DNA of 64,000 bases. It comes from a virus. The stretch is taken from IMG/VR virus record IMGVR_UViG_3300043399_001325, positions 1 through 64,000 of that record; one strand, 5' to 3'. A program made the position numbers and the translations under genes. Below are positions 2,888 to 50,534 of the stretch, in pieces (within the stretch, counting starts at the first letter, position 1; each line of letters opens with the position of its first letter). The notes below the pieces were generated by a model. It was not told the DNA's origin, searched no databases, and was given only the letters and a program-made list of their open reading frames with translations.

Positions 2888-3023
2888 CCTATAACGTTTG
2901 GTGGCTACACGATGTTGCCAAAAAATAAGACCATATTGTTGACTTCAACAAAATGGTTTACAAGTACAAAATAAACATTAAATAACTCCCGAATTGGCAA
3001 TATTGTGTAACCACTGTTATCAC
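2888..3023. repeat. attC-like site, cassette 1 of array 1
   Basis: Left arm TATAACGTTTGGTGGCTACA..GATGTTGCC pairs with the reverse complement of GGCAATATTGTGTAACCACTGTTATCAC. The outer cores are TATAACG and GTTATCA, and the arms contain unpaired bases. Spacer about 75 bp. Confidence 0.7.
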
Positions 3024-3476: not shown

Positions 3477-3606
3477 AGTGATAACGGTTGGGTATTGGCG
3501 ATGTTGCCTATTCCCGAAGCTAAATAGAATTACTAATGTTTAAAATAAAGATGAAAAAGTTAATTGAATCACTGAAACAGGCATGGCACAAATACCATGT
3601 TAGCCG
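3477..3606. repeat. attC-like site, cassette 2 of array 1
   Basis: Left arm GATAACGGTTGGGTATTGGC pairs with the reverse complement of CAAATACCATGTTAGCC. Cores are GATAACG and GTTAGCC. The spacer contains the first codons of the next ORF, so that ORF starts inside this recombination-like site. Confidence 0.65.
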
Positions 3607-3868
3607 TAGTAAGCGGAATCGGAGCAAGAACCAAAGAACATTCGTGTATTGCAAATGCGGTAATGAAATGGTTGGTGATGATGATGGGCAAAAAAACTTG
3701 TCGTTTATTCGAGATGTGTATGTTGAAGAACGAAATGTTGTCCACTACAAATGCAGTAAGTGTGGTATAGAGAGTTTTTTTGACTTTGACCACCCTTGTC
3801 CAATTTCATTGCCATTTGCGGAGAACGATGATATAATTAAGCGATACAGGCTAGCTTATTACGGCTAA
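3536..3868 (+). CDS. Small cassette protein with two CxxC-like pairs
   Basis: A 110-aa ORF whose first ~24 codons lie inside the preceding attC-like repeat, so its N-terminus is a by-product of the junction. The body has CKCGNE near residue 39 and YKCSKCGIE near residue 73, a plausible zinc ribbon, followed by FFDFDHPCP. An alternative ATG is at 3551; no ATG follows until 3668. The stop overlaps the left core of the next attC-like site. Family not recognised. Confidence 0.5.
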   Translation: MFKIKMKKLIESLKQAWHKYHVSRSKRNRSKNQRTFVYCKCGNEMVGDDDGQKNLSFIRDVYVEERNVVHYKCSKCGIESFFDFDHPCPISLPFAENDDIIKRYRLAYYG

Positions 3869-3985
3869 CGTCGTGCCAGTAGGCGCAGTAGCGGCTAAAT
3901 AACAGCTTACTTTCTGTTAAAAATAAACAAGTAAAAAAAACGATTATTAACTAAACGAGCTATTGCCGCTTACTGGCGGTTAGCG
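3863..3985. repeat. attC-like site, cassette 3 of array 1
   Basis: A clear example: GCTAACGTCGTGCCAGTAGG pairs with the reverse complement of CTTACTGGCGGTTAGC, and GCGCAGTAGC with GCTATTGCCGC. Cores are GCTAACG and GGTTAGC. GC-richer than its surroundings. Confidence 0.75.
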
Positions 3986-4157: not shown

Positions 4158-4253
4158 CGCTAACGTTTTGCGTATATGAGCAGTACGCAAAGCACGAACC
4201 TTAAATTAAATATTAAACCTTAATGGTGTATTGCTTATATACGCTGTTAGTAT
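4158..4253. repeat. attC-like site, cassette 4 of array 1
   Basis: GCTAACGTTTTGCGTATATG pairs with the reverse complement of TATATACGCTGTTAG, with AGCAGTAC opposite GTATTGCT. The bases TTT next to the left core are unpaired. Cores are GCTAACG and TGTTAGT. Confidence 0.75.
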
Positions 4254-4456: not shown

Positions 4457-4470
4457 TACTAACTAATGGC

Positions 4471-4555
4471 TAACCGCATATTTTACCGACTTATACAACC
4501 ATCTATCAGGCTTATACATCCGAAACAAGGTGCATACCCCTTAAAACAAGCCCCA
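4471..4555 (+). repeat. Shared cassette-array tail, copy 1
   Basis: GGCTAACC looks like a truncated attC left core. It is followed by CATATTTTACCGACTTATAC (4477), which recurs exactly at 16023, and by CTTATACATC..AAA.AAGGT..ATACCC, also conserved there. Both arrays therefore end in the same module, which runs into a terminator and then into the same promoter unit. Confidence 0.75.
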
Positions 4556-4575
4556 TACTTATCGGGGCTTTTTGT
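4548..4575 (+). terminator. Rho-independent terminator ending array 1
   Basis: Stem AAGCCCC/GGGGCTT with a 9-nt loop, followed by TTTTG. It sits directly after the array tail and 35 bp before the next promoter. Confidence 0.8.
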
Positions 4576-4609
4576 TTTGTTATTTTCACTAAAAAAAACT
4601 TTTCTTTTT

Positions 4610-5788: not shown

Positions 5789-6115
5789 ATGAAGAAAACT
5801 GAGAAAAAGCAGCTCTATTTTAGCCCGAATGATGAGACAACTTGCCATGAGTTTGATTGGCTTTTAGCTGATTGCATTGCTGAAGCTAAGGATAATGGTG
5901 AAGATGAGTTTAAGCTGATTGAAGCAATTCCTGATAATAGCAATCATGATTATGTTTGGTGTACTCACTATCAAGAGGTTGTCGAAAGAGTCGACTGTAA
6001 AAAACATATTTGCCCACATTACAAGTCAAAGAGTGGTAGGGGGGTGTGTCAACTTCGTGGGAACTTTTACTTGCACGGGAAGGAAGTAATTTTTAAGGTT
6101 AGCGATTATGAGTGA
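5789..6115 (+). CDS. Hypothetical Cys/His-rich small protein
   Basis: A 108-aa protein. ATG 5789 follows the preceding stop by 7 bp. Residues about 54-85 contain WCTHYQ, CKKHICPHY and GRGVCQLR, a Cys/His spread that may bind one zinc ion. The last 8 bases overlap the GIY-YIG gene. Family not recognised. Confidence 0.6.
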   Translation: MKKTEKKQLYFSPNDETTCHEFDWLLADCIAEAKDNGEDEFKLIEAIPDNSNHDYVWCTHYQEVVERVDCKKHICPHYKSKSGRGVCQLRGNFYLHGKEVIFKVSDYE

Positions 6116-6962
6116 TGTTTTAGAAGGTAAAAAATATTTTAAAGCGATTATTCGTGTGGTCAAATCAATAGCATTTAAAAACCCTGATGAATACTTGGGA
6201 TTTGATACTGTTGAAGTATTAAGAGAGCCTGTTATTTTAGCAAATGACAAAAACGAGGTTAAACAGTATTTGGCTGAAAAATACCCTCAATTTTTCCCAA
6301 ACGCAAAGGTTTATGAGAGAGAGTCGAAAAACGACAAGACTCAATTCTTCTATGTTGTGATTTTCCCTTTATATCAATATGAAGTTAATCAAATCAATGA
6401 GGGCAATTGGACTTGCGACTATTGTGGTCATGTACATGAAAACCAATACATTTCAAAACCATTGAGGAGCAATAAGTTTGAAGGCAAAATGTTTTGTTCA
6501 AGTGACTACAAAAGCGGTAATGATATTTCTCAAGTTCCTGATTGTTATGAGCTTTGGAAAAGAGAGTATTACAAAGTAAATAATGGTTTAGAAATTCCCG
6601 ATGACTTGAATTTTATAAACGTTGATTCGCTAAATTACATTTACAAAATCACCGAAAAATCAACGGGTAAATGCTACATAGGCAAAACAAGAAATGCTCC
6701 TTTTTTTCGTTGGTGGAATCACCTAAAGCATAGTAGCAGCCCATTTGGATTATACCTTAGACAATCGAAAATAAACGAATGGACTTTTGAGGTTTTAGAG
6801 GAGTTGCCTTCTAACATAGAAGATTCTGAAGTGTTTAGAATCGAAACGGAATATATCCAGAAGTATAACTCAGTTGCTAATGGATTTAATACTATTGTGT
6901 CGAACAAAAAGGCAATAAAATCAAATCAAATTGATTTGTTTGAAAACCAAGAAAACTTATAA
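6108..6962 (+). CDS. GIY-YIG endonuclease-domain protein
   Basis: A 284-aa protein. The N-terminal ~95 residues are unassigned. A zinc-binding segment (CDYCGHVH near residue 102, FCSSD near 128) follows. A GIY-YIG nuclease core starts near residue 174: LNYIYKITEKSTGKCYIGKT, with Arg and Glu residues (FRWWNHL, ETEYIQKYN) in the expected positions. GIY-YIG enzymes cut DNA and often act as homing or repair nucleases. The variant YIY/YIG pair is within family range. Translational overlap with the upstream gene suggests an operon member rather than an inserted homing gene. Confidence 0.8.
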   Translation: MSDVLEGKKYFKAIIRVVKSIAFKNPDEYLGFDTVEVLREPVILANDKNEVKQYLAEKYPQFFPNAKVYERESKNDKTQFFYVVIFPLYQYEVNQINEGNWTCDYCGHVHENQYISKPLRSNKFEGKMFCSSDYKSGNDISQVPDCYELWKREYYKVNNGLEIPDDLNFINVDSLNYIYKITEKSTGKCYIGKTRNAPFFRWWNHLKHSSSPFGLYLRQSKINEWTFEVLEELPSNIEDSEVFRIETEYIQKYNSVANGFNTIVSNKKAIKSNQIDLFENQENL

Positions 6963-7000
6963 ATAAAACAGATAATCAGATAATCAACAATCTTTAATTT

Positions 7001-7180
7001 ATGGACTTATTAAATAAAGTCAAGGACTCCTTGGCAAAAAACAAACGATATGATTTCTCAAGCGAAATATTCGACGATGAGATGCTAACCATCATTTATG
7101 ATGTGGTTTATGAAACTGAAAAGGTTCTGCTAAATAAAGCCGATTCAAACCCAAATTATGAGGATGAAAAAGAATATTAA
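7001..7180 (+). CDS. Small hypothetical protein
   Basis: A 59-aa acidic, helical ORF (MDLLNKVKDSLAKNKRYDF...). It starts 38 bp after the GIY-YIG stop and its end overlaps the methyltransferase relic at 7164. A-rich leader before ATG. No recognised family. Confidence 0.5.
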   Translation: MDLLNKVKDSLAKNKRYDFSSEIFDDEMLTIIYDVVYETEKVLLNKADSNPNYEDEKEY

Positions 7181-7280
7181 TCATAAAAAGCTATCATATA
7201 ATTGGAATTTATCAGATACGGTTTTCACTAAAGACAAAGGTACTGTTTTCTCTTGTTTTTCGTCGGTGGGGGTTCTGTAA
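7164..7280 (+). pseudogene. Relic of a DNA cytosine-C5 methyltransferase N-terminus
   Basis: A 38-codon ORF ends ...FTKDKGTVFSCFSSVGVL then stop. The motif TVFSCFSxGGGS is the usual SAM-binding start of phage cytosine-C5 methyltransferases. Here the GGGS appears only in another frame (GTCGGTGGGGGTTCT at about 7262), followed by stops in all frames, and no downstream catalytic Pro-Cys motif is present. A frameshifted remnant of a once full gene is the best reading. It could instead be a short chance similarity. Confidence 0.45.
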
Positions 7281-7391
7281 TTTCACAATAAATGGCTCTC
7301 TAAAATTAACCTCTAAAAAGCCTCTTTTTTCCGCCCATGTATTATTTTTTGATAATTTGTGGTGTACGGAATTTTAAAACAAGAAAACATT

Positions 7392-7874
7392 ATGAAGAAA
7401 ATAATCAGAATTATAGCCTCGTGGTTTTTCAAAAACAACAAAACAAAAGAAGTCAAACCCGAAAGAACTGTTTTTTTGTTCCTCGATGATATTAGGATGC
7501 CCGTAGATGCGTTTTCTTACACCAACAAGAAAATGTTCATTCAGGAAGATTGGGTCATTGTGCGTGACTACAATCAGTTTGTGCAGCATATTGAGCTAAA
7601 TGGGCTACCTAGGATGATTGCTTTTGACCATGACTTAGCTGATAGCCATTATACGCCTGAAGAGTTATGGACTGACTATGAAAAGTCAAAGGCTTGGCAA
7701 GAGCAGCAAGTACACAAAGAAAAGACTGGGTTTGAATGCGCCAAGTGGCTGGTTGAATATTGTGTTGATAATGATGAAGAACTACCTGATTTCTTTTGTC
7801 ATAGCCAAAATCCCGTTGGTAAGGATAATATTTGTTGGCTTTTAAACAATTTTAAGGAACATCAAAAAAAATAA
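7392..7874 (+). CDS. Cyclic-phosphate-processing receiver-like domain protein
   Basis: A 160-aa protein with the signature of the receiver-like family linked to processing of cyclic phosphates on nucleic acid ends: LDDIRMP at 31-37, FDHDL at 78-82, TGFECAKWLVEY at 112-123 and HSQNPVGKDNI at 137-147. The acidic pair DD and the DHD and HSxNP motifs are presumed catalytic. Start at ATG 7392; upstream in-frame extension to 7359 is leader. The stop lies inside the 7872-7904 hairpin. An RNA-repair or anti-defence role is inference from the family. Confidence 0.75.
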   Translation: MKKIIRIIASWFFKNNKTKEVKPERTVFLFLDDIRMPVDAFSYTNKKMFIQEDWVIVRDYNQFVQHIELNGLPRMIAFDHDLADSHYTPEELWTDYEKSKAWQEQQVHKEKTGFECAKWLVEYCVDNDEELPDFFCHSQNPVGKDNICWLLNNFKEHQKK

Positions 7875-7904
7875 CCGAAGCAAAATGAATAATCGCTTCG
7901 GTTA
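7872..7904 (-). terminator. Hairpin terminator between convergent genes
   Basis: Perfect 10-bp stem TAACCGAAGC/GCTTCGGTTA with a 13-nt loop. On the minus strand it is followed by a T-run (complement of AAAAAAA before 7872), so it ends the minus operon 11247-7960. On the plus strand it lacks a T-run but includes the stop codon of the 7392 gene. Confidence 0.75.
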
Positions 7905-7959
7905 GTTGAAATACAATCTTTGGACGGATATTGTTTTCAATAGTAAATTTAAGCTGAAT

Positions 7960-8268
7960 TTAACCAAATCCATAAAAAGAGTGTTTTGGGTCTTTCACCT
8001 GAGATGTAATGTCTTTTTCTCCGAAGAAGATTTCATTTTCAGACATAACATCCACATGGTATCCGTTGTCAACCACAGACTCTTTTATAACGTTCCCTTG
8101 TTCATCAATAATGGCGTTTTCTAAAACCATTACTCCCAACTCAACAACCGCATGGATTCCCTCTCCATACGTTAGTTGGTCTTCAAGTCGGGTATAAATA
8201 TTTTTAGCCAACAAATCAGCTATTGCTTGGTCTTTATTCTCGTATTTGAGTTTGTATATGTTTGGCAT
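7960..8268 (-). CDS. Small protein downstream of the fibre gene
   Basis: A 102-aa acidic protein starting MPNIYKLKYENKDQAIADLL, with a GIHAVVELG strand region. Proteins of this type commonly lie next to phage fibre genes. Its ATG is 2 bp from the stop of the 8271 fibre gene. No catalytic motif. It could be a chaperone or accessory of the fibre; this is inferred only from position. Confidence 0.6.
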   Translation of the reverse strand: MPNIYKLKYENKDQAIADLLAKNIYTRLEDQLTYGEGIHAVVELGVMVLENAIIDEQGNVIKESVVDNGYHVDVMSENEIFFGEKDITSQVKDPKHSFYGFG

Positions 8269-8270
8269 GG

Positions 8271-10169
8271 TTATAAGGTTGTTAGTTGAATTGCTTCGGT
8301 ATCTGTTATTTGGGTTTTTGATAAATAAAAATCATTGATACCTCCACCCCATTGTCTAAGATTATTCCTATGACCTAAAGCAATTGTATCCATAGCTGGT
8401 ATAGCAGTAGTTGCCAGTGGGGCTTGTTGTACACCATTCAAAAATATTTTTGTTCCTGATGTACTATACACTACGGCAAGTTTATTAAGTCCTGATAATG
8501 GCGTTAAAGTTCTTGCTGCTAAATCACCTCCTGTTAGTATAGTTAATATTAAGTTTTGCATATTATTACTTGTTTGTAATGTTATGTTTTCAGTTGCTAA
8601 ATCCGAGAATAAAACAAGTAGACTTTTGATACCTAATGGATATGGTGTTCCATAAAATTCCAAAAATATTGTACCCTCTGTCTGTCCAATTAAATCAGTC
8701 GCCCCTGTTCTTGTTATAACATCGGCATTTCTTGTTACAGCAACCGTTGATGTTGGTATTACTGAAGTTTGAAATGCTTGTTGTTCCATTTGAGGCATGC
8801 CTATTCTGACTGTAAAGTCGTATGATTGACCAGTTGTAGTGACAAATTCAAGTATAGGTTGAACCCTTGCAACTGTTGCTCCACCAGAAAGTGTTCTTGT
8901 GTAACTAAATCTTTGTAAAGTAGTTGTTGGGGTTATATTTTGAAAACCAGCAGCAACAAATCCTCCAATGCTTGTTAGTTCAAACATTAGTAATCTAAAA
9001 AATGTTGGGGGTTGTGGTTGTGAAACCACTTTAACATAACTTGATAATGTCCAAGTTTGACCTGTTGCTGCTACTATTTGTGTTGTAGGTTCAAATAGTA
9101 TTCTTTGTAATGCTGTACCTGCCCCTCCAGCCGTTCCAGAAAGTCTTAAATCAACATACTCAACCCCATTTTCTACACCTAATCCAACAACTTCCCTTGT
9201 TAACCCAATTAAACTTTGAGTCCAGTTAGTAGGTAATGTCCCTGTGTTTCCTACAACAGCACCAACCATTGTGTTGTTTCTGATTTCATTTCTTGACTGT
9301 GGTTCAACAAGTATTGCTGGACAAGTTCCATTAGAATAATCTAAACGTGCAATATTTGATGCGCTTGTGCCATCTTGTGTTAATCCTTGAAATTTTGTTC
9401 TAACGGATGAAGTTGTTGGTATGTATTCTCCTGCACGATTTGATTGCTCAAGCTGTGCGCCCCAGACATAACAAACATCTTCAGCAACAGTTGATTGATA
9501 AGAGGGGTATCTACCACTATTCGTGTTATTTGTTGTTACAACTTCACAACCTGTAAAAGTACCAGATGATAATGCTGTTGCTTGCAAAGTACATCTATAC
9601 CAACCATTACCAACATCAGTTATTGTTGCAATAGCTCCAGCTCCTATATTTCCAATTACACCATTTTCTAAATCAAAATTAACCCAATTACTTGCTGTAA
9701 ATGGAACGTCTGATACATAAACTAATTGTATCCATCTATGGTTAGCTTTTTTTAAATAATATGATGTTGTATAAGTAGTGTTTGAGATAAAATTTGTAGA
9801 CTGTTGAAGTCTATGTCTTACCGATGAAATATCAACGCCTAATCTCAAAGTATCTGCTGTTAAAGTTCCATCTGGTGCAATTACAGTGTTTGCCGTAATG
9901 GTCAAATTTATTTTATTCCATATTCCTTGTGAAAACATTTCACTTTGCAAAAACAAATTAGTTATAGGCGTTTCAACAGCACCTAAACTATTTACTCTTG
10001 TTGCGCTTGTTGCTCTTGTAACCGTAAAATCTCCACTGCCATCAGTTGGTTTTAATGAATATAGCTTATTAACGCCTACTCCATTAGGAGTTACAATTAA
10101 ACTTGCATCATTATAAAAACTTCCCATTGCTATTATTGATTTAATGTTACTAATAGTGCGGTAAGACAT
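8271..10169 (-). CDS. Large fibre or adhesin protein with LamG-like end
   Basis: A 632-aa virion-type protein. The start holds the motif DFTVTRATSATRVNSLGAVE, common in phage fibre and spike proteins. Two similar beta-rich modules follow (about 65-220 and 280-480), each with a WxxY/GWYRCTL or YDFTVRIGMPQME segment like carbohydrate-binding domains. Residues ~490-632 resemble a concanavalin/LamG sandwich (EGTIFLEFYG, KIFLNGVQQ). No signal peptide or membrane span. It overlaps the small 10133-10279 gene. Receptor binding is inferred; long, repetitive low-charge sequence fits a surface fibre. Confidence 0.75.
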   Translation of the reverse strand: MSYRTISNIKSIIAMGSFYNDASLIVTPNGVGVNKLYSLKPTDGSGDFTVTRATSATRVNSLGAVETPITNLFLQSEMFSQGIWNKINLTITANTVIAPDGTLTADTLRLGVDISSVRHRLQQSTNFISNTTYTTSYYLKKANHRWIQLVYVSDVPFTASNWVNFDLENGVIGNIGAGAIATITDVGNGWYRCTLQATALSSGTFTGCEVVTTNNTNSGRYPSYQSTVAEDVCYVWGAQLEQSNRAGEYIPTTSSVRTKFQGLTQDGTSASNIARLDYSNGTCPAILVEPQSRNEIRNNTMVGAVVGNTGTLPTNWTQSLIGLTREVVGLGVENGVEYVDLRLSGTAGGAGTALQRILFEPTTQIVAATGQTWTLSSYVKVVSQPQPPTFFRLLMFELTSIGGFVAAGFQNITPTTTLQRFSYTRTLSGGATVARVQPILEFVTTTGQSYDFTVRIGMPQMEQQAFQTSVIPTSTVAVTRNADVITRTGATDLIGQTEGTIFLEFYGTPYPLGIKSLLVLFSDLATENITLQTSNNMQNLILTILTGGDLAARTLTPLSGLNKLAVVYSTSGTKIFLNGVQQAPLATTAIPAMDTIALGHRNNLRQWGGGINDFYLSKTQITDTEAIQLTTL

Positions 10170-11314: not shown

Positions 11315-11366
11315 TTGTTGTAGTAAAAACAGTTTTCTTATATTTGTACTAACAAATACTTAAACC
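11315..11366 (+). promoter_or_regulatory. Bacteroidota-type promoter with palindrome (copy 3)
   Basis: TTGTTG at 11315 and TATATTTG at 11339-11346, followed by ATTTGTACTAACAAAT. It lies in the 129-bp divergent gap between the minus gene ending its 5' end at 11247 and the plus gene at 11377. Confidence 0.8.
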
Positions 11367-11376
11367 TTTAAAAAAA

Positions 11377-13115: not shown

Positions 13116-13355
13116 ATGTGTTATATTTTACTAATTAATTTAGGCGAAAAGAAAATTAAAACGCCAAGGCAGTTTTTAGAGCATTTTGGATTTGAAGGTA
13201 CGAAGCGGTATATTTATCAATCTGTTGATTTAGATGGTTGTCTGTGCCAAGTGGATATTGATGATGCTTTAAAAACCCATTCCATTCCGTACAAAAGAGA
13301 TTGTGGCGATTACTTTGTGGGTGAATTGGACGAGATTGTCGGTGATTCTGATTAA
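13116..13355 (+). CDS. Hypothetical 79-aa protein
   Basis: Small acidic protein with KTPRQFLEHFGFEGTKRYIYQS and two Cys in QSVDLDGCLCQVDID. The leader TAGAGAGGAAAAGTT before ATG 13116 is one of few Shine-Dalgarno-like purine stretches here. It is the last operon gene; its stop abuts a terminator hairpin. Family not recognised. Confidence 0.6.
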   Translation: MCYILLINLGEKKIKTPRQFLEHFGFEGTKRYIYQSVDLDGCLCQVDIDDALKTHSIPYKRDCGDYFVGELDEIVGDSD

Positions 13356-13412: not shown

Positions 13413-13622
13413 ATGGGGGTAGATACAAAAAAATTACTATTGGAAGTAAAAGACTTGCACAAGCATAGAGTTGAAGAAACAGTTTTGTTTGCAAGATGTG
13501 GCGCAACTGACAAAGAAATGCGTTTGACATTCTATGGTGGTATTCAGGTTTTGCAAAACGGTAAGATTGTCCGAGAATTTGTGCAAGAGTTTCAGGCTGT
13601 AGAATTTTTTAATAGCTTATAA
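13413..13622 (+). CDS. First cassette protein of array 2
   Basis: A 69-aa protein (MGVDTKKLLLEVKDLHKHRVEE...) with a beta-hairpin-like stretch MRLTFYGGIQVLQNGKIVREF. The stop overlaps the left core TATAACGG of the following attC-like site, the typical arrangement of an integron cassette. No recognised family. Confidence 0.55.
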   Translation: MGVDTKKLLLEVKDLHKHRVEETVLFARCGATDKEMRLTFYGGIQVLQNGKIVREFVQEFQAVEFFNSL

Positions 13623-13700
13623 CGGTAGGCAGCTTGGCGACAGTAGCCGAAGCGTCGGCTTGCAGCGTTGGGGCTATTGCGCCAAACTGCGGTTATCGGC
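13617..13700. repeat. attC-like site, array 2 cassette 1
   Basis: TATAACGGTAGGCAGCTTGG with GGCGACAGTAGCC pairs with the reverse complement of GGCTATTGCGCCAAACTGCG and GGTTATC. A CAGT/CAAT mismatch and an extra A in the left arm recur in sister sites, like the extrahelical bases of true attC hairpins. GC-rich against an AT-rich background. Confidence 0.8.
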
Positions 13701-13743
13701 TGCCCTTCTTTTGGAGTGATTAACAATTAAAACAAAAATACAA

Positions 13744-14109
13744 ATGGACAAAAACGAAATATTTCAATGCAATCAGATTATTGCACAATTCATGGGATGG
13801 ACACCTGATGAAATTAGAATTTACATAGTTGGTAGAAATGGCAACATGGGGAAATTGGCTTTCAATGAAAGTTGGGATTTGCTCATGCCTGTAATTGAAA
13901 AGATTGAAAGCCTACCAACCAATAAGGAGGAAGGCGAGGAATATCAATTTAGTATTACAGGCGATGGCATTGCAATTACTCAATACGATGATGGCAGTGG
14001 CGTTATTGCCAACAGAGTTAACGAAATCGGTAAAAGTAAACTAATGTCAGCTTTTGAAGTTGTGGCTGCTTTTTGCTGTGATTATCTCAAAGTTGAAAGG
14101 CGGTCTTAG
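13744..14109 (+). CDS. Cassette protein, array 2
   Basis: A 121-aa protein with QCNQIIAQFMGW near the start, a motif frequent in small phage and cassette proteins of Bacteroidota, and an amphipathic middle (FNESWDLLMPVIEKIESL). The C-terminus (SAFEVVAAFCCDYLKVERRS) precedes an attC-like site by 5 bp. Catalytic role not evident. Confidence 0.6.
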   Translation: MDKNEIFQCNQIIAQFMGWTPDEIRIYIVGRNGNMGKLAFNESWDLLMPVIEKIESLPTNKEEGEEYQFSITGDGIAITQYDDGSGVIANRVNEIGKSKLMSAFEVVAAFCCDYLKVERRS

Positions 14110-14113
14110 GGTT

Positions 14114-14306
14114 GCCGATAACGTGCGGGCGGTTGGCGCAGTGCGTATTACTAAAAACAAACTTGATATGAAAGCAGAAGAAATACTAAGGAGAATTGGA
14201 TACGACAATGATTCAATTACTTCAACAGAAAAATGGATAGCAGAAACAGTTTATAAACTTGCTATGGATGATGCAGCATCATTGCGCCAACCGCTTGTTA
14301 GCGGTT
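14114..14306. repeat. attC-like site with an ORF start in its long spacer
   Basis: GATAACGTGCGGGCGGTTGG and GCGCAGTGC pair with the reverse complement of ATTGCGCCAACCGCTTGTTAG. The spacer is long (~140 bp) and contains the start of the 14168 ORF, which then reads through the right arm. Confidence 0.7.
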
Positions 14307-14455
14307 CGTTGCCGCCTGTTGACAATAGAGTGATGTTTGCTGATTATATACAACGTTGCGTAATTGAGAGGGGCGCTATGACTTACCCAAGTTTGCAGGA
14401 TGCTATTAAGGTGTGGGATGAAACTACAGAGAGGTTTAGTGGCAATGACCGCTAA
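14168..14455 (+). CDS. Cassette ORF translated through an attC-like arm
   Basis: A 95-aa ORF. The first ~38 residues (MKAEEILRRIGYDNDSIT...) lie in the attC spacer. Residues ~38-50 (ASLRQPLVSGSLPP) are encoded by the right arm of the hairpin, and the rest (MFADYIQRCVIERGAMTYPSL) is the cassette body. This looks like a fusion created by cassette insertion. An earlier in-frame start at 14054 would run through the previous gene and hairpin. Function unknown. Confidence 0.5.
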   Translation: MKAEEILRRIGYDNDSITSTEKWIAETVYKLAMDDAASLRQPLVSGSLPPVDNRVMFADYIQRCVIERGAMTYPSLQDAIKVWDETTERFSGNDR

Positions 14456-14577
14456 CGTTATGCAACTTGGTGTCAGTTGCGGATTATGAAAACAGATTTT
14501 TCTATTTAAGAAAAAAGAACTTAAAAATTAGTATAAACAAAATACAGCAATTGCACCAAATTGCTGTTATAAGCAGG
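14449..14577. repeat. attC-like site, array 2 cassette 3
   Basis: GCTAACGTTATGCAACTTGG with TGTCAGTTGC pairs with the reverse complement of GCAATTGCACCAAATTGCTG and GTTATA. The unpaired TTA beside the left core is analogous to sites 14820 and 15306. Confidence 0.75.
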
Positions 14578-14593
14578 CTTTAAATATAATTTT

Positions 14594-14818
14594 ATGAATA
14601 GGTTATTGATAAATATGAAAAATAAAGTAGAAACGATTAACGGGGCTATTGATATGATTTTTAGATTAAAAAAAGGCGAAAATATAAAACTAAATGGACT
14701 ACATAGTTTTGAAGTTTCAATGGAAAACAATAAAGATTTCGATTACAATAAAAGATTATCGGAATTATACGAAGAACGCGAAAATTTACAAATCAGAATT
14801 ATGCGTATGGGTGGATAA
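14594..14818 (+). CDS. Small coiled-coil cassette protein
   Basis: A 74-aa charged, largely helical protein ending YNKRLSELYEERENLQIRIMRMGG, a likely short coiled coil. ATG 14594 is 16 bp after the preceding attC-like site; ATG 14615 is an alternative. Its TAA is 4 bp before the next site's left core. No recognised family. Confidence 0.55.
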   Translation: MNRLLINMKNKVETINGAIDMIFRLKKGENIKLNGLHSFEVSMENNKDFDYNKRLSELYEERENLQIRIMRMGG

Positions 14819-14819
14819 G

Positions 14820-14900
14820 CTTGCTTATAACGGTTTGCAGATACACGCTGTGAGCGTTGGATTGAGCGTTGCAAAATAGCGTGTATGTGCTGTTAGTAGA
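14820..14900. repeat. attC-like site, array 2 cassette 4
   Basis: TATAACGGTTTGCAGATACA and CACGCT pair with the reverse complement of AGCGTGTATGTGCTGTTAG. Short spacer of ~25 bp. A well-formed member with unpaired TTT near the left core. Confidence 0.8.
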
Positions 14901-14925
14901 TGGCACGGTTAATTAACGATAAAAT

Positions 14926-15312
14926 ATGATTATGAAACGAATACAAAGAAAGCGGACAAAAGGGTGGAAAATGCCCGAAAATACTGTTTATGTTGGCAGA
15001 CCTACCAAATGGGGAAATCCTTTAAAATTGGTTGGAGATATTATTTACATAAATGCAAGTTGGAGAAGAAAGATTTTAGACCCGTGGGTTTACTTTAAGC
15101 AAGGAACTATTGAAGATGTGGTAAAGTATTACGACTTGCTTTTAAATGGAGAATGGTTAGGAGATAACGAAGATATGAGATACTGGAATATTGAACTGCA
15201 TAAGCTACCAATACACGAGTTGAAGGGCAAAGATTTAGCTTGCTTTTGTCCGCTTTCTTGTGCTTGTCACGCAGATGTTCTTTTGAAACGTGTCAGTAGT
15301 GCTTTCTGCTAA
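14926..15312 (+). CDS. DUF4326-type cassette protein
   Basis: A 128-aa protein with the DUF4326 pattern: VYVGRPTKWGNPLK near residues 22-35, a helical middle, then LKGKDLACFCPLSCACHADV near 100-119. The family is common in phages and mobile DNA; conserved Cys/His suggest metal binding, function unproven. ATG 14932 is an equally good start. It occupies its own attC-flanked cassette, and its stop codon lies in the next hairpin. Confidence 0.8.
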   Translation: MIMKRIQRKRTKGWKMPENTVYVGRPTKWGNPLKLVGDIIYINASWRRKILDPWVYFKQGTIEDVVKYYDLLLNGEWLGDNEDMRYWNIELHKLPIHELKGKDLACFCPLSCACHADVLLKRVSSAFC

Positions 15313-15366
15313 CGTTTTGCAGATTGGCGGTCGTTTTAATGCCGCCAATGTGCTGTTACCAGCAGT
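15306..15366. repeat. Compact attC-like site, array 2 cassette 5
   Basis: About 60 bp, the shortest of the set: CTGCTAACGTTTTGCAGATT and GGCGG pair with the reverse complement of CCGCCAATGTGCTGTTACCA. This length is like classical short attC sites. Confidence 0.8.
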
Positions 15367-15393
15367 TAATATTCACAATTTAAAAACAGAAAT

Positions 15394-15621
15394 ATGATTT
15401 GGAATAAGATTGAAAACAAAAAGCCATTAGCCTACCAAAGCGGTGGATGGGATGGCAAAAAGAGCGACAAGGTATTAGTATGCACACGAAGCGGAAGATA
15501 CTATGTTGCTGAAATGTATGAAGGTGTTTTAGATGGTAGCGAATTTTGTGACTTCTATGATGACCGAGATTTTGAGATAGAAAATGTGGCTTTTTGGACG
15601 GAGATTGACAGCCCGTTTTAA
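15394..15621 (+). CDS. DUF551 protein in a cassette, paralogue of the 5163 gene
   Basis: A 75-aa protein with WNKIENKKPLAY, KSDKVLVCTRSGRYYV, EMYEGVLDG, FYDDRDFEIENV and the ending WTEIDSPF. It is nearly colinear with the 5163-5390 product. That one lies in a promoter-led operon with no hairpin, this one in an attC-flanked cassette, so the same phage gene exists in mobile and fixed form. Confidence 0.8.
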   Translation: MIWNKIENKKPLAYQSGGWDGKKSDKVLVCTRSGRYYVAEMYEGVLDGSEFCDFYDDRDFEIENVAFWTEIDSPF

Positions 15622-15624
15622 TTG

Positions 15625-15757
15625 CTGGTAACGGCTGACGCTATACGAAGGCAGGGTTCAGATGCACTCCCTTTCAGCCTTTCACAATGATAAATAGATG
15701 CACACCGCTTGTATTAGCAGTACGCCCCTGCTTTTGTATAGCGTATGTTATAGGGCG
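15625..15757. repeat. attC-like site, array 2 cassette 6
   Basis: GGTAACGGCTGACGCTATAC and GAAGGCAGGG pair with the reverse complement of CCCCTGCTTTTGTATAGCG and ATGTTATA. Spacer ~65 bp. Confidence 0.75.
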
Positions 15758-15774
15758 TTTTTAATTTAATTACA

Positions 15775-15996
15775 ATGTCAAAATTTACAATTTACAACGA
15801 AGATGGATTTCCAGTAGGTAGCGTTAGAAAAGCATATCCTGTGAAATTTGTAGACCCGAAAAAAGAATACGAAGTAAGTTATCTTGCTCCGCACCAAAGT
15901 AAAAGTGGTGAACGGGAATCTGGAAATTTCACACTTAAAGGCGAAGATTTAACTGAAAATCAAATATGGCAGTTGTTTCTTCGGGAGGCTCTTTAA
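15775..15996 (+). CDS. Last cassette protein of array 2
   Basis: A 73-aa protein (MSKFTIYNEDGFPVGSVRKAYP...) with beta-rich N-terminal half and a helical end (LTENQIWQLFLREAL). It is followed by GCCCTATAAC, a left attC core, and then directly by the array tail, so its attC seems truncated or fused with the tail. No recognised family. Confidence 0.55.
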   Translation: MSKFTIYNEDGFPVGSVRKAYPVKFVDPKKEYEVSYLAPHQSKSGERESGNFTLKGEDLTENQIWQLFLREAL

Positions 15997-15999
15997 AAT

Positions 16000-16100
16000 G
16001 CCCTATAACTCATCGCTAAGGACATATTTTACCGACTTATACATCTAAAATAAGGTAGATACCCTTGAAGCAAAGCCCTTTCTAATTGGGGGCTTTTTTT
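16000..16100 (+). terminator. Shared array tail (copy 2) and terminator
   Basis: A partial attC left core (CTATAAC) is followed by CATATTTTACCGACTTATAC (16023), the same sequence as at 4477, then CTTATACATC..AAA.AAGGT..ATACCC. The terminator stem is AAAGCCC/GGGGGCTTT with T7 at 16072-16100. Promoter copy 4 follows within 40 bp, as in array 1. Confidence 0.75.
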
Positions 16101-16130
16101 ATTGATTTTTTTTAAAAAAAATGACTTTTT

Positions 16131-49715: not shown

Positions 49716-50534
49716 CTACATTACATATTGATTTATTAATTCTTGAGTCTTTTTTGTCAAAGCCTGTTCTAAAGTTAATGGCTTTTCTTTTATTAAAGGA
49801 TTTTTTTTAGTCAAGGGGTCAAGATATTTTTTCTGATTAAGGATTAGATAGTCTTGAATAACTTTTTCAAATTTACTTTTATCAGGCACTATTACCTTTT
49901 CATCGTCAACATCTACATAAACAAAAATTCGCTTATTACCTGCATAATACTCTTTATTGACATAGGCTTCTACCAATAATAATAACTCAAATTTTTCCGC
50001 ATACTTATTTTGATGCTTGGTTACATCATCCGTAATTTTATGGAATCGAATCCAGTTGAGATTTTGCCATATTTTAGGGGAAATCCTTCCAATTGATTGG
50101 AAGTGCAAAATTATGTCCGTGTCCGTGTGTCGGTTTGTACAAATTGCACCAATTAAATCGTTTGGAAGGGTGTCGGAAACATACCGATTAATATCTTCAA
50201 TTAAAAGTAAACCACCTCTAAAATCGTTCAGGATTCGAAACAATGCGTCTTGTATTTCTCGAATTGTCCATCGAACACCATTATCGTTAAAGGGTCTTAT
50301 TCTTCGGGCTTCAATTTTTGGGTGTGCTGAAAACCTAATTACGTCAGAAAGTCTTAATGCGTTAATTTGCTCGAACTCATCATTCACATCCAAAATCAAA
50401 ACCCGTCTTGGGGCAACTCCTTTGGATGGGTTTCCTACCACATATTTTTCAATCATTTTGGTAGTCGTATAAGTTTTTCCACAACCTTTTCTCCCTACCG
50501 CTACACCTAATCTTGGTTCTCTTAATTCTGCCAT
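49716..50534 (-). CDS. A32/FtsK-HerA-like packaging ATPase
   Basis: A 272-aa P-loop ATPase: Walker A GRKGCGKTYTT (14-24), Walker B GGLLLIEDINRY (107-118) and a downstream TNRHTDTDIILHFQSIGRI motif (133-151) typical of the A32/HerA-FtsK packaging family of PRD1-adenovirus-like viruses. It lacks a nuclease domain, so is not a terminase. This is the strongest argument for a tailless virion with membrane. It lies next to lysis genes and 34-aa TM gene. Confidence 0.8.
   Translation of the reverse strand: MAELREPRLGVAVGRKGCGKTYTTTKMIEKYVVGNPSKGVAPRRVLILDVNDEFEQINALRLSDVIRFSAHPKIEARRIRPFNDNGVRWTIREIQDALFRILNDFRGGLLLIEDINRYVSDTLPNDLIGAICTNRHTDTDIILHFQSIGRISPKIWQNLNWIRFHKITDDVTKHQNKYAEKFELLLLVEAYVNKEYYAGNKRIFVYVDVDDEKVIVPDKSKFEKVIQDYLILNQKKYLDPLTKKNPLIKEKPLTLEQALTKKTQELINQYVM

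Follow-up and report, generated by a model that had tools for sequence, protein, structure and literature searches.

What kind of element is formed by the inverted repeats that alternate with small genes at 13.6-16.0 kb of the IMG/VR record IMGVR_UViG_3300043399_001325, from a virus of Bacteroidota, and what type of recombinase could have assembled it? The record comprises 100,322 bases, of which bases 1-64000 form the window, i.e. the whole 64,000-nt stretch analysed here. In the region in question, termed array 2, six attC-like sites alternate with six cassettes, each containing a small open reading frame (ORF). Sequence comparisons show that this is a true cassette array, probably a recombinase-less member, akin to a cluster of attC sites lacking an integrase (CALIN), of an inverted, non-IntI integron-like system. 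The array most likely functions like an integron, judging from the architecture of its sites and cassette ends, stem covariation, cassettes and an end element shared among viruses, the linkage of a recombinase to arrays in relatives, and one natural difference of two cassettes between plasmids. It is not filed as a classical integron because it departs from that class in two defining tests, namely IntI and gene polarity.

Architecture of array 2

The sites of array 2 were located by a fixed-geometry scanner, with coordinates that include the AAC of the left R box at one end and the GTT of the right R box at the other; sites, cassettes and flanking features all lie on the plus strand. A gene recognized by sequence reading at 13413..13622, whose stop overlaps the left box of the first site, is probably the last resident operon gene, because no matching GTT start is found upstream. 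Site 1 (13621..13694) is followed by cassette 1 (13692..14122; ORF 13744-14109), the ends of which were read directly as TTATCGGC and GCCGATAA. Site 2 (14120..14299) is unusual in measuring 180 nt and in enclosing the start (14168) of the next ORF, which runs through into cassette 2 (14297..14456; ORF 14168-14455; ends TTAGCGG and CCGCTAA). Site 3 (14454..14568) precedes cassette 3 (14566..14831; ORF 14594-14818) and site 4 (14829..14894) precedes cassette 4 (14892..15313; ORF 14926-15312), with end matches of 7/7 and 5/7 respectively. Beyond site 5 (15311..15357) lie cassette 5 (15355..15632; ORF 15394-15621; end match 7/7), site 6 (15630..15749) and cassette 6 (15747..16009; ORF 15775-15996), the last again read directly, with ends TTATAGGGC and GCCCTATAA. 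Overall, cassette ends scored 6, 7, 5 and 7 of 7 in four cassettes, the other two having been assigned by direct reading. The right end of the array is an attI-like element, AAC-TCATC-GCTAA-GGA-CATATTTTACCGACTTATACA (16007..16043), and just after it the terminator scan places an intrinsic terminator that closes the operon (16072..16104).

A sequence-only reading of this region had proposed six strong inverted repeats, interspersed with short ORFs of the DUF4326 and DUF551 types and preceded by a terminator. The repeats are real, their reported positions (13617, 14820, 15306 and 15625) coinciding with sites called here, and the ORF at 14926-15312 indeed encodes a DUF4326 protein (PF14216, E 1.3e-18), but Pfam did not confirm DUF551 for the ORF at 15394-15621. 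As for the terminator, none near 13355 is listed by the scan; a clear one (16072-16096) follows the array. At a strict cut, the fixed-geometry scanner called 5 sites in these 2.6 kb; 300 shuffled versions gave 0.01 on average and never more than 1. Folding of the sites as DNA hairpins gave modest z-scores (-1.4 to -4.8, top strand), and Rfam yielded no match. Folding energy alone is a weak test and no proof of such sites, which are proven by their box and stem geometry.

Site geometry and cassette-end signature

Each site consists of AAC, five bases (mostly with G first), a stem of ~14 positions, a variable loop, the second arm, one base and GTT; site 6 has two bases before GTT instead of one. 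RYYYAAC and GTTRRRY boxes are present together with a covarying stem. The start (GTTnnn) and end (nnnAAC) of these cassettes are reverse complements within one cassette and not within one site. In integrons, the two ends of a cassette are joined in its circular form, and the ends of one arrayed site derive from different cassettes; the start and end of the same cassette should therefore be complementary. Across 128 loci, complementarity of at least 6/7 was observed in 102 of the 169 adjacent pairs, compared with 4.7% when cassettes were permuted, and the two boxes of a single site matched at about chance level. This pattern is the signature of circular-cassette integration.

Stem covariation was assessed in sites picked by exact box matches on both sides, with the stems not looked at. 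Stems pair best when the offsets on the two sides are 4 nt apart (5/1, 6/2 and 4/0), with mirror images appearing because the offset test is strand-blind. Among the 69 sites pairing at 5/1, all four Watson-Crick pairs are represented, three or four types of them at most positions of the stem, and covariation exceeds all 200 partner permutations at most positions, being weakest at 6 and 14. Position 14 accounts for the recurring CAGT/CAAT mismatch noted by the sequence-only reading, which proves to be a G.T wobble at a fixed position in 47/69 sites. Given that G.T corresponds to a C.A mismatch on the opposite strand, this position could mark the strands. The common origin proposed for the arms is borne out by compensatory stem changes typical of attC-type hairpins and by the delimitation of mobile cassettes by the sites; with covarying stems and, in most sites, no T tract, these are not ordinary terminators. 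The designation as attC holds for integron-type sites but not for the canonical form, from which both the spacers (5 nt versus 1 nt) and the polarity of genes relative to sites differ; the recurring G.T or C.A position stands where clear bulges would be expected. In classical attC sites, a conserved G follows the AAC of the crossover box (PMC2727003). G likewise follows the left AAC in 65/69 sites, a count biased by loci that were fetched with a TAACG pattern.

A shared end element and cassettes shared among viruses

The record contains three arrays rather than the two originally suggested, and each lies behind the final gene of an operon and ahead of that operon's terminator. Array 1 comprises plus-strand sites called by the scanner at 2893..3018, 3483..3601 (weak), 3867..3981 and 4162..4248, with a degenerate site to the left of the first (about 2560-2676); its right end is an attI-like element (4461..4497, plus strand) followed by a terminator at about 4545-4580. 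Array 3, on the minus strand at about record bases 99011-100322, lies at the record end and runs off the contig. Arrays 1, 2 and 3 end alike, in a 37-bp attI-like element, GCTAA NNN CATATTTTACCGACTTATACA, placed after the last AAC. The same element terminates arrays in L003 and L004, two unrelated viruses in which the surrounding genes are different; these two were the only matches to broader patterns of the element. A complete site is absent at this end of the arrays and present at the opposite end. By integron logic, this would place attI at the right end, and the cassette genes would thus read toward attI.

Individual sites and cassettes recur in other viruses. Cassette 5 is found in L008/L188 and L009 with about 90-91% DNA identity and different neighbours, the shared blocks stopping at the boxes, and the 49-50 nt spanning site 5 recur unchanged in at least 10 other viral contigs. 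Relatives of site 6 occur in L004, L087, L211 and a 634-kb phage, and a site-derived pattern matches at least 119 viral contigs. The 634-kb genome, an uncultured phage (L006, LR745206.1), contains box-matched cassettes alongside its site-6-like site at 6001-8718.

A XerA-like recombinase beside related arrays

Cassette 5 of the window also leads to a virus that has both an array and a recombinase: in L008, a tyrosine recombinase gene begins 56 bp beyond the end of the array and is followed by a terminase-like gene. A profile built from three recombinase proteins identified relatives in 236 viral contigs, of which 80 were fetched, and in 18 loci of a genome collection; except for the three seed proteins, linkage to an array was no selection criterion. 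Counts were made on the 67 loci for which 1.5 kb or more of sequence upstream of the recombinase was available, nearly all of them viral and a few from genomes. Attached to the recombinase on its upstream side, attC-like sites occur in 56 of these loci, compared with 4 that have them downstream. The terminal AAC lies mostly 53-56 bp ahead of the recombinase start codon and is commonly followed by a TAYTATATGTA-like stretch. Genes next after the recombinase include those for portal, terminase, protease, major head and helicase proteins. Most cassette ORFs in these loci (116/130) read in the direction of the recombinase, toward attI, as do the cassette genes of the window arrays, judged by their end element. 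As a control, 14 weaker recombinase relatives had 2 sites in 51 kb of upstream sequence, both in a Flagellimonas plasmid and belonging to a true array. Canonical spacer geometry shows no clear enrichment in the viral loci (15 versus 9 in shuffled sequence).

The linked recombinase is a XerA-like protein of ~275 aa that scores below the cut-offs of NF040815 and TIGR02249. When aligned to the solved Vibrio IntI, it is missing the IntI-specific stretch: 53-61 residues separate two motifs in the linked recombinases, versus 86-100 in IntI. This constitutes the main departure from integrons, because the insertion has been described as essential for integron function (PMC8138268; PMC9668308). In a tree, the linked recombinases group apart from 14 Bacteroidota IntI proteins. 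An AlphaFold model (predicted local distance difference test score, pLDDT, 88.6; predicted template modelling score, pTM, 0.67) best matches XerA and VchIntI, with an uncertain domain arrangement.

Isolated phages and resistance plasmids

Related arrays are also present in cultivated phages. Polaribacter phage Leef_1 has both recombinase and array; the last of its four box-matched cassettes stops 55 bp short of the integrase gene. The isolate Flavobacterium phage filifjonk9-1 (L007, NC_048831.1) carries a cassette array with several DNA methyltransferase genes.

On the Flagellimonas plasmid, two cassettes, one with a dihydrofolate-reductase-like gene and one with erm(F), precede xerA. An Arenibacter plasmid shares with it an identical segment that begins at the right-end AAC, includes xerA and extends as far as the sequence was fetched; another cassette replaces the Flagellimonas pair, and divergence sets in directly left of the AAC. 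This is a natural difference of two cassettes at AA|C, the putative attI, beside an identical xerA. The erm(F) unit common to other Bacteroidota plasmids spans exactly the interval from its site's AAC to its end AAC, and a Riemerella plasmid contains four consecutive box-matched resistance cassettes (ere(D), erm(F), estT and catB). Across three Bacteroidota plasmid loci (L300, NZ_CP092416.1, 1881-3970; L312, NZ_CP072192.1, 19-5760; L310, NZ_CP102755.1, 1050-4974), box-matched cassettes with erm(F), ere(D), estT, catB, OXA-347 and dihydrofolate-reductase-like genes were observed. The putative integron-like gene-capture system is widespread, and the same cassette type carries antibiotic-resistance genes on Bacteroidota plasmids. 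The balance leans towards a broader claim: a distinct integron class, with inverted polarity and a XerA-type recombinase that lacks the IntI insertion, would be the general means by which viruses and plasmids of Bacteroidota capture genes, and would have shuffled the resistance genes of this phylum (erm(F), ere(D), estT, catB and OXA-347) unrecognised.

Proposed mechanism and alternative explanations

The proposed mechanism covers catalysis, strand choice, supply of the recombinase in trans, expression and benefit. A cassette would be a circle-derived unit of one attC-like hairpin and one small gene, and recombination would join the box of the cassette site to the attI-like element at the right end, with the crossover at AA|C (G|TT on the opposite strand). 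The likely catalyst is the XerA-family tyrosine recombinase whose gene starts directly after attI in related viruses and plasmids. Because the cassette genes point toward attI, their transcription probably begins at the operon's promoter, ahead of the array, rather than at an attI promoter. In the window virus, the recombinase may be supplied in trans, by a host element or a co-infecting virus, or be encoded in a missing part of the genome. No match to IntI, PF00589 or the A1 profile was found in the 100,322-base record, and the array is therefore regarded as a CALIN-like member of the system.

Several points weigh against this assignment. No recognisable tyrosine recombinase is present in the window record, L003 or L004, and the end element of these three viruses is unlike the attI of viruses that have the recombinase. 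The element is also absent from the 85k genomes searched, and the relatives of the recombinase were gathered by homology, so their single clade arises partly by construction. An ordinary CALIN, in which a canonical host IntI captured the cassettes and left them in the virus as in other phages, is nevertheless unlikely. Canonical IntI does occur in the phylum, with 105 of 396 sampled genomes having a match that exceeds the family cut-off; phage CALINs are known, and, in one study (PMC9892861), IntI1 recombined 5 of the 6 phage attC sites that were assayed, including one of the Bacteroidota phage P12002L. However, 20 canonical IntI loci had 0 sites of the window geometry in 543 kb (both strands) and the viral recombinase loci had 85 in 1.57 Mb, an array at a canonical IntI locus was canonical when read by eye, with cassette genes reading away from intI, and the absence of the end element from the 85k genomes counts against an ordinary CALIN as well.

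It is more improbable still that the recombinase serves as a lysogeny integrase only, with an attP that resembles attC and cassettes acquired at excision. Tandem box-matched arrays adjoin the recombinase in most loci, their ORFs are biased in polarity, and the same architecture recurs on plasmids with resistance cassettes, although simple tyrosine recombinases are known in phages (PMC8138268) and the Leef_1 integrase has been interpreted as a sign of a temperate lifestyle (PMC8776804). The recombinase may serve both lysogenic integration and cassette recombination. There is hardly any likelihood that the hairpins are terminators, or inverted repeats that arose by chance between the phage genes: some of the stems do overlap with calls of the terminator scan, which total 13 terminator-like sites in the region against 3.1 expected, but most sites lack a T tract, complementarity joins cassette ends and not the halves of a site, site 5 is identical in unrelated viruses and the 5/1 geometry is fixed. 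The cassette-end statistics already contradict such an origin.

Gene surroundings in the record

The operon with array 2 at its 3' end begins with a promoter-like leader read directly on the plus strand at 11330..11376 (TTGTTGTAG...TATATTTGTACTAACAAATACTTAAA), and this motif recurs ahead of the operons after arrays 1-3. Direct reading also finds a repeated motif, TTTGTACTAACAAA, at operon starts, which appears to resemble a Bacteroidota promoter. The operon ending in array 1 is headed by ORF 1107-2528, which at 1368-1994 contains many near-identical LTSVNFPQLTQIGNDNFYDCNA protein repeats. The record start (1-1100) is very G-rich and of low complexity, with CAAAATCAGAAATTAGATGCTTGATAATGAAGGTGTTACTTAGTATAACGGGAAAATGA in four or five copies. 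The gene content of the record, which may be incomplete at 100 kb, includes a RecT-like annealing protein, one tail-protein match and an AAA+ protein; for the AAA+ gene after array 2, no close relative was found in viral contigs. The minus strand at 29960-57407 encodes a long series of 100-200-aa proteins, many with one terminal hydrophobic helix, beside which lies a small packaging-type ATPase (49716-50534; weak terminase match). The run and the ATPase together possibly indicate an unusual virion type.

Relationship to known recombination systems

If confirmed, this system would mean that attC-type cassette capture is possible without the IntI-specific insertion held essential for integrons, that viruses themselves carry capture machinery, and that common Bacteroidota resistance genes gain a defined mechanism of mobility. 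Two solutions to hairpin-site recombination could then be compared, and Leef_1, with recombinase and array in one cultivated phage, makes the idea directly testable. No earlier report of this class, with its combination of recombinase and polarity, was found in the literature searched, which covered few subscription papers and preprints.

Shared with classical integrons are tandem one-gene cassettes, R-box (nnnAAC / GTTnnn) hairpin sites, cassette-end complementarity and an attI beside the recombinase. The system differs from them in that its linked recombinase has no IntI insertion and falls outside the IntI clade, and its genes read toward attI, whereas classical genes read away. Its sites have spacers of 5 and 1 nt, and a mismatch or wobble in place of the clear extrahelical bases of classical attC. 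With at least two attC sites, as called by the fixed-geometry scanner, and no integrase gene near, the window array corresponds to a CALIN. Integrase-less attC arrays are likewise described for phages, including the Bacteroidota phage Polaribacter P12002L, in the accessible part of Qi et al. 2023 (PMC9892861), which ties the phage sites to IntI; the present system differs in its XerA-like recombinase and inverted polarity, and extends beyond that part of the study in the end element common to three arrays and three viruses. In Treponema integrons, intI is transcribed toward attI, with the cassettes after it (PMC3607928). In the present system, by contrast, the cassettes precede attI and their transcription runs toward it, and the recombinase gene points away from attI.

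XerA acts on dif-type sites and is not known to act on cassette arrays, and pdif modules, the substrates of XerC/XerD, are flanked by short dif-like sites of about 28 bp. The sites described here are looped hairpins of 47-180 nt and so do not correspond to pdif. By both family and fold, the linked recombinase is matched best by XerA-type simple tyrosine recombinases (NF040815; PDB 5hxy), from which it differs in scoring under the NF040815 cut-off. The window record shares site geometry and cassettes with the inverted XerA-linked system; most recombinase-bearing relatives have a XerA-like recombinase immediately behind attI, a feature that the window record, L003 and L004 lack.

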